A stretch of DNA of 20,838 nucleotides from IMG/VR virus record IMGVR_UViG_3300027973_002415, positions 1 to 20,838 of that record. One strand, 5' to 3'. Below the pieces are notes generated by a model that was given only the letters and a program-made list of their open reading frames with translations, was not told where the DNA came from and made no database searches. This DNA comes from a virus. Both the position numbers and the translations under genes were made by a program. Position 1 is the first letter of the stretch. Each line of letters opens with the position of its first letter. Positions 3,777-9,800 of the stretch are shown here, piece after piece.

Positions 3777-4024
3777 AGCGGATACTCCAATCAACGCAGC
3801 AGAAAATCGTCAGGGACATCCTCAGGCGCGAAACCATCGCCTTGGTCAAGCGAAAACCCGGCCACACGACCGGAGATCTCGCCTACGGATGGTTCCAAGC
3901 CATCCGGCCATGGCGCAAGATCGGGCGGATAGAAGCCGCACTCAGACTGGGAGAAATCCTCCGGGAATTGGAGGTCGAATGCGTCGTGCGACGCGAGGAT
4001 CGGAAATGGTATCCGATTTCATGA
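3773..4024 (+). CDS. Small basic protein of unknown function
   Basis: The product is 83 residues and strongly basic, with many Arg and Lys (MKRILQSTQQKIVRDILRRE). It is predicted mostly helical; the end (RLGEILRELEVECVVRREDRKWYPIS) resembles a small winged-helix type fold, though no family is recognised. It overlaps the upstream small gene by ATGA, and its own TGA (4022-4024) overlaps the ATG of the first DUF4417 gene at 4021. Nucleic-acid binding is a guess from charge. Confidence 0.65.
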   Translation: MKRILQSTQQKIVRDILRRETIALVKRKPGHTTGDLAYGWFQAIRPWRKIGRIEAALRLGEILRELEVECVVRREDRKWYPIS

Positions 4025-4644
4025 GCGAAGTTCCAAACGCAGTCTTCCCGACCGACAATCTGGCGGAGGTTCCAACCCTCCGCCTGGCTCTACAGGCCGA
4101 TGCGATCGATCAACCATTTTTGCCGTGGGGCGGCGAGTCCAAACACTGGCGAATTTCGCGTCAATCGGCCTTTCGCGGCACCTGGCATTTCTACGTTGCG
4201 GACAAATATTTCAGTGCGCTAAAACGCGAGCCGGATCTGCCAATGAGGACATCGGCTCCGACGTTGGTCGAGCCGAATTTTTCGATAGGCGACTCCACGC
4301 CGCACTGGCTCGGGCTGCACGAAATTGGATGGAAGCGTTGGATTGCGCGTTACTGGCAGGCCCAGGGTCGCCGGATTTTGGTCGACCTTCATGTGCCAGC
4401 GAAATTCCAGATGACGAACCTCATCGGCGTTCCAGCCGGATGGAACGCGTATGCGACCCGAGCCGCCGAAACTCGGATCGCCGATCTCGAAAACGAGCAT
4501 ATGCTGGCGATGGCGCACGCCGAGGTCGATGATCCCTCGGAACTGGTTTTTGCCGTCTACGGAGGTGGAGATCGCGTTCGGGATTGGTGCCGCCGCCGCT
4601 CAGCGGAATGGATTCCGGCGACGGGACGGGGCCGCCCGTCATAA
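4021..4644 (+). CDS. DUF4417 protein, copy 1
   Basis: The product is 207 residues. The frame is open further upstream, but the ATG at 4021 overlaps the previous stop and gives an N-terminus that aligns with the second copy. Family landmarks are WHFYVADKYFSAL, then VEPNFS, KRWIARYWQAQGRRIL, DLHVPAKFQ and IGVPAGWNAYATR. DUF4417 occurs in phages and mobile elements; no biochemical activity is known to me. The same landmarks recur in the gene at 5045, so the pair arose by duplication. The C-terminus is shorter than in copy 2 and ends in a basic tail (GRGRPS). Its stop overlaps the stop of the reverse-strand gene that separates the two copies. Confidence 0.78.
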   Translation: MSEVPNAVFPTDNLAEVPTLRLALQADAIDQPFLPWGGESKHWRISRQSAFRGTWHFYVADKYFSALKREPDLPMRTSAPTLVEPNFSIGDSTPHWLGLHEIGWKRWIARYWQAQGRRILVDLHVPAKFQMTNLIGVPAGWNAYATRAAETRIADLENEHMLAMAHAEVDDPSELVFAVYGGGDRVRDWCRRRSAEWIPATGRGRPS

Positions 4645-5046
4645 GTCCGGGAAGGTTAGTCCGGGGTCTGCAATTTGATTCCGCAACTTACGATAGACCC
4701 TTAGCTGGTCACTTAAGGTTGTCTGAATGTTATGCTGCCTGAGGAAATTGATGCTTTGTTTTGACAAAAAAGCGGCCTGAACTGTTTGATACCCAATTTC
4801 GCCCGCCAAAAAAACCAACCTTGCTTGTTTTGCGGCGATTTCCGGCTGATCGCCGCCATCAAGGGCGGCTCGAAACTCCTGGGAGGCGACAACCTTATCC
4901 TGATTTAGCGTGGTCAATTCCCTCAAGGCGTCCTCGACAAGACCTGCAAGTCGCGCGGCCTCGCCTAACACGGCGACGCTCGATCCCTCGGGGTTGACAG
5001 GCTCCCGACCGGGCAAACCTACGCCCGCAGTCTTGTTCGATCCCAT
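4639..5046 (-). CDS. Reverse-strand protein between the DUF4417 copies, unknown function
   Basis: The product is 135 residues and mostly helical: LGEAARLAGLVEDALREL, QARLVFLAGEIGYQTVQAAFL, LSDQLRVYRKLRNQIADPG. Composition is natural and no alternative forward gene exists for most of this stretch. The ORF fills the gap exactly. Its stop overlaps the stop of copy 1 by six bases, and its ATG shares the palindrome CATG (5044-5047) with the ATG of copy 2 on the other strand. No family is recognised. It may be a small independently expressed accessory gene. The chance that it is spurious is low but real, since no homologue is known to me. Confidence 0.68.
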   Translation of the reverse strand: MGSNKTAGVGLPGREPVNPEGSSVAVLGEAARLAGLVEDALRELTTLNQDKVVASQEFRAALDGGDQPEIAAKQARLVFLAGEIGYQTVQAAFLSKQSINFLRQHNIQTTLSDQLRVYRKLRNQIADPGLTFPDL

Positions 5047-5734
5047 GACTACCGACAGCCCGAGTCAACCAGCCGCGCCGCTTGATATTGAATGGCCGAC
5101 GGACAACCCGCTTGAGCTTCCGACGCTCCGACTCGACCGCCAGGCCTTGGCTATCGTCGCGCCGATGGCCTGCTGGGGAACGGTCCGGAGGCGGGATCAA
5201 AACAACGTCAACTCGTGGCATTTTTACACCGACGATTACCGGTTCAGCCGACTCTGGAGTCATCCGCAGGATGTCGTCGCGACCGGAGCAAAAATTTGCG
5301 TCGAGCCCAATTTCTCGGCTCTCGACTCGATGCCGTTCCCAGTCGGATGGAACAACCTCTACCGAAAACGATGGGTGGCTCGATGGTGGCAGGATCAGGG
5401 AATAGATGTCATCGCCGATCTCTACGTCGGAGCGAAATACCAATCGCACAACTGGATGGGCATTCCGCAAGGTTGGCGTGCCTACGCAACCCGAGGGAGC
5501 GCGGAGGATCCCGAGGCGACCGTCTCTCTATTTTACCGAGCATCCGAGCATGCAGGAACGGATCAGATCCTATACTACGTCTACGGCGGCGGCATCACTC
5601 AAGCCCGCGTCCTCCGCGATGCCAAAATCCCGGTTGTGCTCTCCGACTACTACCGGGACCATGACGCAAGGGTTTGGCTCGCAACCAACGGAGCCGCCGA
5701 TCCAGTTCCTCGGTTGACACTCCTCGCCGACTAG
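5045..5734 (+). CDS. DUF4417 protein, copy 2
   Basis: The product is 230 residues from the ATG at 5045. Shared blocks with copy 1 are ELPTLRL (LEVPTLRL-like in copy 1), WHFYTDDYRFSRLW, VEPNFSALDSMPF, KRWVARWWQDQGIDVIADLYVGAKYQ, and MGIPQGWRAYATRG. Here the end is extended with a YYVYGGG motif, echoed by FAVYGGG in copy 1, and about 50 further residues. The conserved Trp, Tyr and Gln positions suggest a ligand-binding or enzymatic fold, but the role is unknown. The frame is open upstream to 4910; that part faces the reverse-strand gene and lacks family similarity, so 5045 is chosen. The Ig-like gene begins three bases downstream. Confidence 0.82.
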   Translation: MTTDSPSQPAAPLDIEWPTDNPLELPTLRLDRQALAIVAPMACWGTVRRRDQNNVNSWHFYTDDYRFSRLWSHPQDVVATGAKICVEPNFSALDSMPFPVGWNNLYRKRWVARWWQDQGIDVIADLYVGAKYQSHNWMGIPQGWRAYATRGSAEDPEATVSLFYRASEHAGTDQILYYVYGGGITQARVLRDAKIPVVLSDYYRDHDARVWLATNGAADPVPRLTLLAD

Positions 5735-6508: not shown

Positions 6509-6855
6509 CGACGATTCCCGCCAAGCTTCATTTTCCATATGCTCTCCGGGTTCTCCGGGCAGGCCATGCTGTGCGCCGGGTCGGCTGGACGGATCGGTGG
6601 TGGATCTGGCGGGGCGGGATCGTCATCCAGATTGAGGCAGGCGAACCAAACGCTCCGGTGCGATCGATCGATTACGATGCCGATGACCTGCTAAGCTGGG
6701 ACTGGACGACCCTGCCAGTCGATTGCGAGCTGCTGACGAAGGAGCCGGACATGCAGGAACTGATGACGATCCGACCGTATGATGGCCTGCCCGACTCCGC
6801 CGATCCGCTCGGATTGGGCTGCAACCTTCCAACCATTGAATCAATTCGGAAATGA
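6505..6855 (+). CDS. DUF2829 protein, Tad2-like (possible Thoeris anti-defence)
   Basis: The product is 116 residues. Residues about 9-72 match the DUF2829 pattern: YALRVLRAGHAVRRVGW (the AL-xx-L-xx-G-xx-V-x-R-x-GW signature), an aromatic strand (RWWIWRGG), and a closing DADDLLSWDW. Tad2 proteins of this family sequester the cyclic ADP-ribose signal of Thoeris defence; many family members are untested. Residues 73-116 form an extra tail with no recognised domain. The gene overlaps both neighbours by ATGA, so it is expressed with the surface-protein cassette rather than with early genes. Family membership is well supported. Anti-Thoeris function is inferred. Confidence 0.75.
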   Translation: MTTIPAKLHFPYALRVLRAGHAVRRVGWTDRWWIWRGGIVIQIEAGEPNAPVRSIDYDADDLLSWDWTTLPVDCELLTKEPDMQELMTIRPYDGLPDSADPLGLGCNLPTIESIRK

Positions 6856-7847
6856 TCAAGCCGCCGAAAATTTCCGGTCGCCGGGTCGCAGTTACGTTTT
6901 CGCGGCCTGCGTTTCCTCCCGGGCCTGCGATTCCCAAAGCGAGCTGGCCTTCGGTTGTTTGGACGCCGCGCCGGGATCGCGGACGTCCTTACGAGCCCCT
7001 GGTGCCTCCGCCGACTCCTCCGCCTCCGCCCGCTCCGCTCTCTGCGGTCATAACAATGACCCGAGCCTGCGTTGATGAACTGCCGATCACCTATCCGTAT
7101 AGCGCAACGTTTTATCGAAGCGAGGAATCCGAACTCCCGCCGTTCGTTACGCTCAATGGAGGAATCGCGGGCGCGCCGTACATTTTACGGCTGTATTGGC
7201 ACCGGTTCGTTGGCGACAACCTCACAGAAGAGATCATCTGGTCCGAAACAATTGTTCGGACAGGCGGGTCGCAGATTGTTAATTTCGCGGAGGAAGGCTC
7301 GGCCTTCACTCGGACATTCGACGGTCCTGTCGGGCAGACTTTTCTCAACGGATCAACGAGTGTAGCGCCGCTTTATTTTGAGGTATTCTCAAGCGCGGGC
7401 CGGGTCCTGACGCTATTCCCATTTGTGCCGCACGTTGAATGCGGAGTTGCGCCAAGCTCAACTCCGCCTCCAAGTTCGACTCCTCCTCCGAGTTCGACTC
7501 CTCCTCCGAGTTCGACTCCTCCTCCGAGTTCGACTCCTCCTCCATCCTCGACTCCTCCTCCATCCTCGAGTCCTCCTCCATCCTCGAGTCCTCCTCCATC
7601 CTCGAGTCCTCCTCCAATACCGTACGACTACAGTCTCTCCTACGAATTATATAGCGCCGCTTCCGCCTGCATGTTCGGGTCGGCATCGACGTACTACAGC
7701 CCGTTCTCTCCTCTGGTGGAGGGCGCATCGCTGTGGGCAAACATAGCGATGAGCCTCCCAGCGTCGGGGGGGTATTATTCAAACGGAGGACAATGGTATC
7801 AAGTGGCTGACGGCGGGACGATCATAATTCTCGGCAACTGCTCATGA
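6852..7847 (+). CDS. Proline-rich repeat protein, probable virion or tip component
   Basis: The product is 331 residues. Order: a short basic N-terminus, a PPPTPPPPPAP linker near residue 55, a beta-type domain (about 65-195), eight 6-residue repeats PPPSST or PPPSSS (about 205-252), then a Tyr/Ser-rich C-terminal domain (YDYSLSYELYS to NCS). The layout of two globular domains joined by a stiff Pro/Ser/Thr linker suits a tail-fibre or surface protein. There is no signal peptide. It overlaps the Tad2-like gene upstream and the methyltransferase-GT29 gene downstream by ATGA. The Ser/Thr-rich linker is a plausible target for sugar attachment by that neighbour; this is inference. Confidence 0.65.
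   Translation: MIKPPKISGRRVAVTFSRPAFPPGPAIPKASWPSVVWTPRRDRGRPYEPLVPPPTPPPPPAPLSAVITMTRACVDELPITYPYSATFYRSEESELPPFVTLNGGIAGAPYILRLYWHRFVGDNLTEEIIWSETIVRTGGSQIVNFAEEGSAFTRTFDGPVGQTFLNGSTSVAPLYFEVFSSAGRVLTLFPFVPHVECGVAPSSTPPPSSTPPPSSTPPPSSTPPPSSTPPPSSTPPPSSSPPPSSSPPPSSSPPPIPYDYSLSYELYSAASACMFGSASTYYSPFSPLVEGASLWANIAMSLPASGGYYSNGGQWYQVADGGTIIILGNCS
7464..7607 (+). repeat. Eight tandem 18-nt repeats encoding PPPSS(T/S)
   Basis: Eight in-frame units follow one another without interruption. The first four use AGT TCG ACT for the SST part; the fifth uses TCC TCG ACT; the last three use TCC TCG AGT. The Ser-Ser pair thus changes between AGT and TCC codons, which are not one mutation apart. This suggests two sub-repeats that expanded separately. 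A partial unit follows at 7608-7616. Confidence 0.95.
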
Positions 7848-8947
7848 CCGAACTGGAAAAATATCAGGGTATCTACGGATCTGTCGACTTTTCTAGCTAC
7901 GGCCATACATGCCACGGCGCGCGAGCAATTCCTATTATTGCTCGGTGGCAGCCGAAAACAGTCATTGACGTCGGCTGCGGTCATAATGAGTTTGCTCAAC
8001 GACTCCGTCAGGCGCTTCCAGAAGCGAGCATCATTGGTTGCGACTTTGCCTGCCCCTCAGCGGATCTGATCTGCTGGGGACATGACATTCCGCAACCTGA
8101 CAAAAATTTCGATGTTCTGACCGCGTTCGACGTTTTGGAGCATCTTCCTCCCGAGGACGTGGATAGGACGCTTTCCGAGTGGGCTCGGATCTCTAAAAGA
8201 TTCTGCGTTTCGATCAGCTACGTCGATAGCATCAACCGCTACAAGGGCGAAACTCTGCATCCGACCGTTCGGCCAGAGGGATGGTGGATTGATCGATTGA
8301 TGCGTGCCGGAGCGATGGAAATCAAAATCGAGGGACGTTATATCTATGGCCGCTGGATCCAGCCTTTGCGGGTCGCGAAAAACGCTAGGGTCATCCTTGT
8401 TGGCAACGGTCCTTCAATTTTGGCGCAAAAGCTCGGCGAACAGATCGACGAATTCGACGAAATCGTTCGGTTCAACGATTATCTAACAACCGGATTTGAA
8501 AAGCATGCTGGCAGCAAAACAACGCTCTGGTCATGTTTTGCCCCGATTTCCAAAAAAGCCCAACACCCTAGAATTCTGCTCCCGCACGAACAGACCAACG
8601 CCGACTCGAGCGCGAAGGAAGTCTACAAGGTGCCGGCGAGGCACTACAATGAACTCCGCCGGATAATTCAGGAACGGGCGTTGGTCAGATCGGGATATCG
8701 GCGAGACAGCACCGGCTTGCTTCCAAGTTCCGGCCTACTGGCAGCCACATACCTGCTGAATGTAGTTGGCGTGGATCAATTGAGTTTGATCGGATTTGAC
8801 CACTTCGCCAAGGATCGCTCAAGCCAACATCATTATTGGCTCCCAGGCGCGTTCGGAACGCCAAGAGAACATGACGGAGATGTTGAGGGGGATATTTTCG
8901 ACGAGTTGCGAAAAGCGGGCAGAATTTTCAACATCGGCACGGTGTAG
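7844..8947 (+). CDS. Fusion of SAM methyltransferase and GT29 sialyltransferase-like domain
   Basis: The product is 367 residues with two domains. Residues about 1-175 form a class I methyltransferase: motif I VIDVGCG (40-46), then an acidic strand end, and FDVLTAFDVLEHLPPEDV (89-106). Residues about 180-367 resemble GT29: an L-motif-like ARVILVGNGPS and IDEFDEIVRFN (181-211), an S-motif-like PSSGLLAATYLL to SLIGFDHF (294-321), and HDGDVE (343-348), which fits the HxxxxE very-small motif. GT29 enzymes transfer sialic acid from CMP donors; bacterial and phage relatives may use other sugars. No membrane anchor is present, so it acts in the cytoplasm. It is the last gene of the ATGA-coupled cassette. 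The acceptor is unknown; the adjacent PPPSS protein, a host glycan or a nucleotide sugar are candidates. Confidence 0.8.
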   Translation: MTELEKYQGIYGSVDFSSYGHTCHGARAIPIIARWQPKTVIDVGCGHNEFAQRLRQALPEASIIGCDFACPSADLICWGHDIPQPDKNFDVLTAFDVLEHLPPEDVDRTLSEWARISKRFCVSISYVDSINRYKGETLHPTVRPEGWWIDRLMRAGAMEIKIEGRYIYGRWIQPLRVAKNARVILVGNGPSILAQKLGEQIDEFDEIVRFNDYLTTGFEKHAGSKTTLWSCFAPISKKAQHPRILLPHEQTNADSSAKEVYKVPARHYNELRRIIQERALVRSGYRRDSTGLLPSSGLLAATYLLNVVGVDQLSLIGFDHFAKDRSSQHHYWLPGAFGTPREHDGDVEGDIFDELRKAGRIFNIGTV

Positions 8948-8991: not shown

Positions 8992-9120
8992 ATGCCACCT
9001 ATCCATAAAAGCGACCAATTAGGCAGTCAGCTAGGCATTCGGACAGACGCGCATCCGTTGACTCGTCCCAACACAATCAACCCCCTGCAACGCGCAAGAA
9101 CGCCCGTAAAAACCGCTTGA
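8992..9120 (+). CDS. Possible short ORF before the terminase genes
   Basis: A 42-residue ORF (MPPIHKSDQLGSQLG to PVKTA) follows an A-rich leader. Its TGA at 9118-9120 shares a base with the ATG at 9120. The product is basic and lacks membrane segments or known motifs. It lies in the 170-base gap where cos or pac sites usually sit, so the open frame could be accidental. No homologue is recognised. Confidence 0.35.
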   Translation: MPPIHKSDQLGSQLGIRTDAHPLTRPNTINPLQRARTPVKTA

Positions 9121-9800
9121 TGGTGGGATCTTCGTTGCGCAACGAAGATCCCACCACCAGACCAGTGAAAAAACGAACACCAGAGTTGGCGAGAGCGGTC
9201 CTAGAGCAGGACCTCGACGAGCTGCAGCGTCGGGTGGCGGATGGAAGGCGCCTGACCAAGGCCGAGCGAGAGATGTTGCGCCAACTGGCTGATGATGAGG
9301 CTGATGAGCCGACCGCTCCCGCTGATCCAGTGCCGGTCGGGTTCGCCAAAAATTACGTTGAGCTGGCCGCCGTGCTGGGCGTGCATCGGAGAACGCTGCA
9401 GGCATGGCGGAAACTCATAGGATGCCCGGCGCCTCGACCGGATGGGAGGCTGCTTATCTCCGAATGGCAGGAATTCATGGCCAACAAGGACCAGGCGCAG
9501 CAATCACAGCCGCAGGACTCCGAGGAGCTGAAGGCGCGGAAGCTTCTGGCCGAGGTCGAGGAACGGGAGCTGAAGGTAGCCATTCGCCGCGGCGAATACG
9601 TCCAGATCGACGAAGTGGCGCGAGAATGGACAACCCGGGCCGGAAGGGCCGTAAATCTTTTGCGAAACAAATTTGAGTCCGAGCTTCCGCCGATTCTGGC
9701 GGGCATGCAAGCCGCCGAGATCCAGGCCGAGGCCCGGAAGGCGATTGATGAGGTCCTAACTATTCTCCATGAACCCGAGGCTTCAACAGATCTGGCGTGA
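9120..9800 (+). CDS. Terminase small subunit (Nu1-like)
   Basis: The small subunit recognises the packaging site and recruits the large subunit. The protein has a charged N-terminal helix region, a winged-helix/excisionase-like HTH (ELAAVLGVHRRTLQAWRKLIGCPAPRPDGRLLISEWQEFM, about residues 80-118), then a coiled helix pair typical of Nu1-type subunits (ELKARKLLAEVEERELKVAIRRGEYVQ), and an oligomerisation-type tail. The frame allows ATG 9120 (226 residues) or GTG 9165 (211 residues). ATG 9120 overlaps a short upstream ORF, but its first 12 codons coincide with a perfect palindrome that would bury the start in a hairpin, so GTG 9165 is a serious alternative. The 3' end overlaps the large subunit gene by 32 bases. 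Confidence 0.85.
   Translation: MVGSSLRNEDPTTRPVKKRTPELARAVLEQDLDELQRRVADGRRLTKAEREMLRQLADDEADEPTAPADPVPVGFAKNYVELAAVLGVHRRTLQAWRKLIGCPAPRPDGRLLISEWQEFMANKDQAQQSQPQDSEELKARKLLAEVEERELKVAIRRGEYVQIDEVAREWTTRAGRAVNLLRNKFESELPPILAGMQAAEIQAEARKAIDEVLTILHEPEASTDLA
9121..9156. repeat. Perfect 36-nt palindrome at the terminase small-subunit start
   Basis: The left arm TGGTGGGATCTTCGTTGC is followed at once by its exact reverse complement: 18 base pairs with no spacer. It begins one base after the A of the ATG at 9120. No T-run follows, so it is a poor intrinsic terminator. Position next to the terminase gene suggests a packaging (cos/pac), telomere-like or translational control site. The function is open. 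Confidence 0.95.

Follow-up and report, generated by a model that had tools for sequence, protein, structure and literature searches.

We observed that a phage gene in the window (the whole 20,838-nucleotide stretch analysed here, IMG/VR record IMGVR_UViG_3300027973_002415) encodes a class I SAM methyltransferase fused to a GT29 sialyltransferase-like domain (MT-GT29). The catalytic residues are intact, the gene is under purifying selection, and the fusion recurs in further phage lineages in both domain orders, with linkage to genes for proline-rich repeat proteins. The GT29 family, phage glycosylation and GT29-like genes in phages are already known. In the searchable literature we found no description of a phage GT29 fused to a methyltransferase nor of sialyltransferase-methyltransferase fusions, and the recurrent, order-swapped fusion with its coupled Pro-repeat genes seems not to have been described before. 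An earlier, sequence-only reading of this DNA had held that no phage enzyme with such a pairing was described; this seems to hold for the fusion, but not for GT29-like phage genes as such.

Domains and integrity of the fusion gene

The reading frame was open throughout, with zero internal stops. The features of the gene and its downstream neighbour, and the evidence for each, are as follows.

7844..8947, plus strand: MT-GT29 fusion gene, 367 aa, ATG at 7844, stop at 8947
7844..8371, plus strand: class I SAM methyltransferase domain, residues 1-176 (Pfam Methyltransf_25/23/11, alignments)
7961..7981, plus strand: SAM-binding motif I, VIDVGCG, residues 40-46 (sequence, Pfam)
8372..8944, plus strand: GT29 sialyltransferase-like domain, residues 177-367 (Pfam Glyco_transf_29, 2wml alignment, Foldseek 2wnf)
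8384..8476, plus strand: sialylmotif L, residues 181-211 (2wml alignment, residue roles in PMC6884586, conservation)
8723..8806, plus strand: sialylmotif S, PSSG...GFDHF, residues 294-321 (2wml alignment, conservation)
8828..8839, plus strand: sialylmotif III, HHYW, residues 329-332 (2wml alignment, PMC6884586, conservation)
8870..8887, plus strand: sialylmotif VS, HDGDVE, residues 343-348 (2wml alignment, PMC6884586, conservation)
9117..9800, plus strand: terminase small subunit-like gene, downstream of MT-GT29 (PHROG 57)

The C-terminal half matched Pfam Glyco_transf_29 (PF00777) at E=1e-14, with 55 bits against a curated cut-off of 23, and residues 36-118 matched several class I methyltransferase profiles, four of them above their curated cut-offs (Methyltransf_25/23/11 included). 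In a phmmer search of the PDB, residues 176-357 aligned to porcine ST3Gal1 (2wml) at E=5e-12, with both HHYW and HDGDVE inside the alignment. We used this alignment, together with the residue roles known for hST3Gal1 (PMC6884586), to map individual positions. N188 and N211 are the counterparts of the CMP-phosphate asparagines N147 and N170; H330 aligned with the catalytic acid H299, Y331 with the tyrosine Y300, H343 with the catalytic base H316, and E348 with the motif VS glutamate E321. All mapped CMP-binding and catalytic positions were kept, with the sole exception of the cytidine-stacking W297, whose place is occupied by Q328. The sequence-only reading had located motif I at 40-46, motif L at 181-211, motif S at 294-321 and HxxxxE at 343-348, and these coordinates were correct, DVGCG of motif I occupying 42-46; it had counted L, S and HxxxxE as all three GT29 motifs, and these are present, but motif III had been overlooked.

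In the methyltransferase half, which ends in a conserved LHPTVRPE-WW signature in the alignments, D42, G44, G46 and D67 were invariant in 13/13 aligned rows. Since the SAM motif and its acidic residues are invariant, this half is probably active.

AlphaFold2 (run on 25 aligned sequences) modelled the whole protein at a pLDDT of 90.5 and a pTM of 0.87. When this model was compared with the PDB using Foldseek, ST3Gal1 (2wnf) was the top match (E=1.2e-8, probability 1.00), with ST6GALNAC2 also among the leading ones; class I methyltransferases ranked after the GT29 sialyltransferases, and were mostly small-molecule methyltransferases, many of them O-methyltransferases. A structural search of a viral library gave matches that included phage methyltransferases as well as mimivirus and herpesvirus GT29 proteins, and none of the matches listed clearly spanned both halves. 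Motif I, the acidic strand-2 residue and the fold identify the first half as a class I SAM methyltransferase, and the profile score, motifs L/S/III/VS, the histidine pair with the CMP-binding asparagines, and the fold identify the second as GT29. The structure prediction and profile search that had been proposed as checks both gave GT29 for the C-terminal half, which aligns with the GT29 fold and not with the non-glycosyltransferase fold that was to refute the claim.

In line with the sequence-only reading, no anchor was predicted in the 367-aa protein; its most hydrophobic 19-residue stretch averages 1.57 and sits inside the S motif. No cysteine of the L/S disulphide was found, either in motif L or in motif S. 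Since it lacks both these cysteines and a hydrophobic anchor, the protein is, as judged from its sequence, a GT29 member outside the animal subfamilies (ST3Gal and related). It is like ST3Gal1 (PDB 2wml/2wnb/2wnf) in the four sialylmotifs, the CMP-binding asparagines, the acid/base histidines and the fold, but differs in having no transmembrane anchor or L/S cysteines, in the Gln for the cytidine-stacking Trp, and in the fused methyltransferase. Bacterial GT29 proteins also lack a membrane anchor and conserved cysteines (Petit et al. 2018, PMC5811610), and share all four sialylmotifs with the window protein (the Pseudosulfitobacter example), but the accessible text of that paper does not mention a methyltransferase fusion.

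The same fused reading frame was intact in six further IMG/VR contigs at 84-100% identity, and dN/dS for the window-clade fusion was about 0.08 overall and low in both halves, indicating purifying selection. Because of this the fusion is neither a chance event nor a sequencing error; two genes wrongly joined by sequencing, the outcome that was to refute the earlier claim, is ruled out by the six intact relatives and by the recurrence in unrelated contigs of further phage lineages. The proposed joining of the two domains in one protein is thus borne out by profile, motifs, fold and independent contigs.

Recurrence and exchange of the two halves among phages

Other lineages were found by profile-guided scans and then classified with local HMMs (L-numbers denote loci; one alignment, A3, was too divergent for the pattern scan). 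The search for proteins of the same domain order, which the sequence-only reading had suggested, yielded MT-GT29 in the window clade and at least four more distant lineages (L111, L114/L134/L135, L116/L117 and L158); in L116/L117 a separate GT29 gene lies just before the fusion. The reverse order, GT29-MT, was seen in L025, whose GT29 and methyltransferase are 43-45% and 46% identical to those of the window, and in L026, the methyltransferase of which is only a distant relative. A third GT29-MT lineage is perhaps L057, its N-terminal half having weak GT29-like motifs only and no Pfam match. The two domains occur as separate adjacent genes in L027, L121 and Stenotrophomonas phage DLP_6.

The methyltransferase half can be exchanged. 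In L025 and L112 the flanks on both sides are collinear at 86%, the first reaching the end of GT29 and the second starting past the methyltransferase, which is a fused member of the family in L025 versus a separate next gene of the Methyltransf_24 type in L112. The fusions of the window, L111 and L116 formed one group in the tree of GT29 domains (98/97), and L114 and L025 branched with standalone GT29 genes; fusion or splitting has therefore probably occurred more than once.

Unfused GT29-like or sialyltransferase-annotated genes are found in Azotobacter phage TayeBlu (PMC12772287), in DLP_6 and in the jumbo phage LR756508, where two GT29 genes flank NeuB and a GIY-YIG homing endonuclease-like gene (L008, 2968-6382). 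Related arrangements were also noted: a likely sulfotransferase-GT29 fusion, read by eye, that adjoins another GT29 gene and has NeuB nearby (L030, 3563-4816); a 548-kb phage contig in which this methyltransferase family is present in three closely spaced copies (L051, 3369-6106); and a layout resembling that of the window in phage DSL-LC06, where a DNA-packaging gene comes after a related methyltransferase, with glycosyltransferase and methyltransferase genes in between. No fusion was found in cellular genomes, the scan of genome contigs giving one weak GT29 match, in Rhizobium; 2/398 genomes of the Rhizobium phylum matched the GT29 profile, neither shown as a fusion, and the plasmid scan gave one GT29 match, a standalone gene.

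Elsewhere in the window, positions 544-2245 encode a QueD homologue and a fusion of a DpdA-like TGT domain to DUF6884, which suggests modification of the DNA with 7-deazaguanine. The relative L003, collinear in other respects, lacks this stretch. A DUF4417 gene (4910-5734) has an apparent diverged second copy upstream (3889-4644), and no RNA families or tRNAs were found in the window. Both contig ends of a 40.4-kb relative, L001 (IMGVR_UViG_3300010885_047290), lie within the repeat described below, so this contig probably represents a nearly complete circular map opened there. The closest matches of the terminase and the capsid protein come from Verrucomicrobia phage P8625 and Akkermansia phage Chantilly, respectively; as both matches are just about 25-30% identical, a Verrucomicrobiota host can only be guessed at.

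Proline-rich repeat neighbours and the sugar donor

The gene directly upstream overlaps the fusion and carries a proline-rich repeat.

6852..7847, plus strand: upstream gene for a 331-aa candidate acceptor protein, with a stop that overlaps the start of MT-GT29
7452..7616, plus strand: (PPPSST/PPPSSS)n tandem repeat in the upstream protein (TRF, 18-bp period; alignment)
7844..7847, plus strand: ATGA overlap of the upstream stop and the MT-GT29 start (sequence)

The overlap makes translational coupling of the two genes probable. The 331-aa protein had no Pfam match and no PHROG match, and its model was of low confidence (pLDDT 38) and mostly beta. The length of the (PPPSST)n repeat differs between phages, and in the window a variable C-terminal domain comes after it.

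A Pro-rich repeat occurred in a nearby gene in 5/5 MT-GT29 lineages, and in the window, L111, L158 and L115/L116 that gene overlaps the start of GT29 or MT-GT29 by ATGA. The repeat is PTPSPS in L111 and SPTPDV in L114/L134 (with a GT8-like gene in between), in both at or near the C-terminus, and L158 has a (TP)n tail finishing on the MT-GT29 start. The L115/L116 neighbour has (PH)n at or near its C-terminus, without Ser/Thr hydroxyls; these Pro-His tails (4663-4974 in L115, about 4660-4977 in L116) stand beside standalone GT29 genes, and in L116 a Pro/Ala/Ser-rich alternative frame enters the GT29 start. Since methionine takes the place of the motif VS histidine in the standalone GT29 copies beside (PH)n, this lineage may have drifted. 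Beyond the MT-GT29 lineages, a TP repeat was found inside a divergent neighbour in L118, L140, L143 and L148 (on the opposite strand in the L118 group), a SPSSSP repeat neighbour in L122, and a Thr-rich downstream neighbour without proline in L026; L025/L112 had no repeat neighbour. A repeat was near 7/25 GT29 locus clusters versus 0/31 methyltransferase-only clusters (Fisher p=0.002), by a criterion formed on the same data, of clustered loci, after the pattern had been seen. Loci found later (L158, L140, L143 and L148) also fit, only L158 being a new lineage.

GT29 enzymes use CMP-activated sialic acids as donors. NeuB was near 5/25 GT29 clusters versus 0/31 methyltransferase-only clusters (p=0.014), occurring only near the more distant standalone GT29 genes. 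The proximity of NeuB and cytidylyltransferase genes to GT29 genes of other phages favours a nonulosonate donor. The window-clade loci yielded no NeuB, and there was neither NeuB nor NeuA among the larger genes scanned in the 40-kb relative L001; as neither was recognised among the genes examined, the donor of the window phage would have to be supplied by the host.

Proposed activity and its alternatives

We propose, at a little less than an even chance, that the protein is a bifunctional cytoplasmic enzyme that transfers a CMP-activated 2-keto-3-deoxy sugar acid onto a phage protein and O-methylates the sugar. The host would supply the donor, either a sialic-acid-like nonulosonate or Kdo, and the GT29 half would move it onto hydroxyls of a phage-encoded protein, with H330 as the acid and H343 as the base. 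The acceptor would most likely be the Ser/Thr-Pro repeat of the upstream gene, and the methyltransferase half would most likely O-methylate the transferred sugar; we infer the donor, the acceptor, the methylated position and a product on the virion. The best working analogue is Maf, which combines a methyltransferase-like domain at its N-terminus with a CstII-like sialyltransferase domain and O-glycosylates flagellin Ser/Thr in the cytoplasm with nonulosonates (PMC11339370). The likeness is in how the two may work and not one of family, since the Pfam scan of the window protein gave no Maf_flag10 match at E up to 1; Maf belongs to a Pfam family of its own and has a helical C-terminal domain, and the motif similarity of its methyltransferase-like domain is no more than weak. 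In the mycobacteriophages Che8, Corndog and Myrna, capsid and tail proteins are indeed modified by phage glycosyltransferases (PMC12363180), the accessible text of that report mentioning neither GT29 nor a methyltransferase fusion.

The main difficulty for glycosylation of the repeat is that (PH)n in L115/L116 offers no hydroxyl. L025/L112, without a repeat neighbour, and the opposite-strand repeat of the L118 group also count against it, as does a repeat test designed after the fact, and no neighbour is a proven virion protein. The restriction of NeuB to the surroundings of the more distant standalone genes likewise counts against the proposal, as does the fact that no NeuB was recognised among the genes examined in the window phage. 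The repeats could instead be rigid stalks or spacers that are merely linked, the sugar going to virion or other phage proteins. The variable domain after the window repeat is what a stalk would predict, and (PH)n retains length and proline; we nevertheless consider this unlikely, since every other lineage has Ser or Thr in its repeat and the genes directly overlap. Another reading, which is somewhat unlikely, is that the enzyme uses a methylated sialic-acid-like sugar to remodel the host envelope (LPS core, O-antigen, capsule or lipid-linked precursors), for a superinfection block or a receptor change. Many phage GT29 loci do hold other sugar genes (GT2, GT8, NeuB, cytidylyltransferases, GDP-mannose dehydratase), and cytoplasmic lipid-linked intermediates are reachable without an anchor; however, there is no membrane anchor, and the fused genes, which overlap a Pro-repeat gene, are placed close to terminase or putative structural genes and not in an early or lysogeny region.

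Methylated flagellins are a precedent for methylation of the protein acceptor. The methyltransferase half might act in this way, or mainly bind the acceptor as a module like the N-terminal domain of Maf, whose function is unclear (PMC11339370), and the (PH)n neighbours would supply histidines for methylation. We regard this as quite improbable, given the invariant SAM motif and acidic residues of a half that is probably active, the mostly small-molecule structural matches and the exchange for unrelated methyltransferases. Modification of phage DNA nucleobases, jointly with the 7-deazaguanine genes at 544-2245, is highly improbable. The window does contain QueD and the DpdA-like/DUF6884 gene, but L003 retains MT-GT29 without them, GT29 enzymes act on glycans, and no DNA-binding part was seen.

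Glycosylation and O-methylation of the repeat could form part of a wider scheme, which we consider possible but doubtful: a modular phage system for mucin-like proteins, in which a length-variable Ser/Thr-Pro repeat protein receives an acidic nonulosonic sugar and a methyl cap from one enzyme, the genes of the two being translationally coupled. As its methyltransferase half is exchangeable (L025 versus L112), phages could then switch their surface glycan chemistry.

If the proposed activity is correct, one soluble enzyme would suffice for phages to decorate repeat proteins of their own with O-methylated sialic-acid-like sugars; the two proteins would form a compact enzyme-substrate pair for protein glycosylation, and phages would have a new route to vary their surface chemistry. 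GT29 is often regarded as an animal family; here it would be a soluble enzyme needing neither anchor nor disulphides, at work in phages beside NeuB-type sugar pathways.
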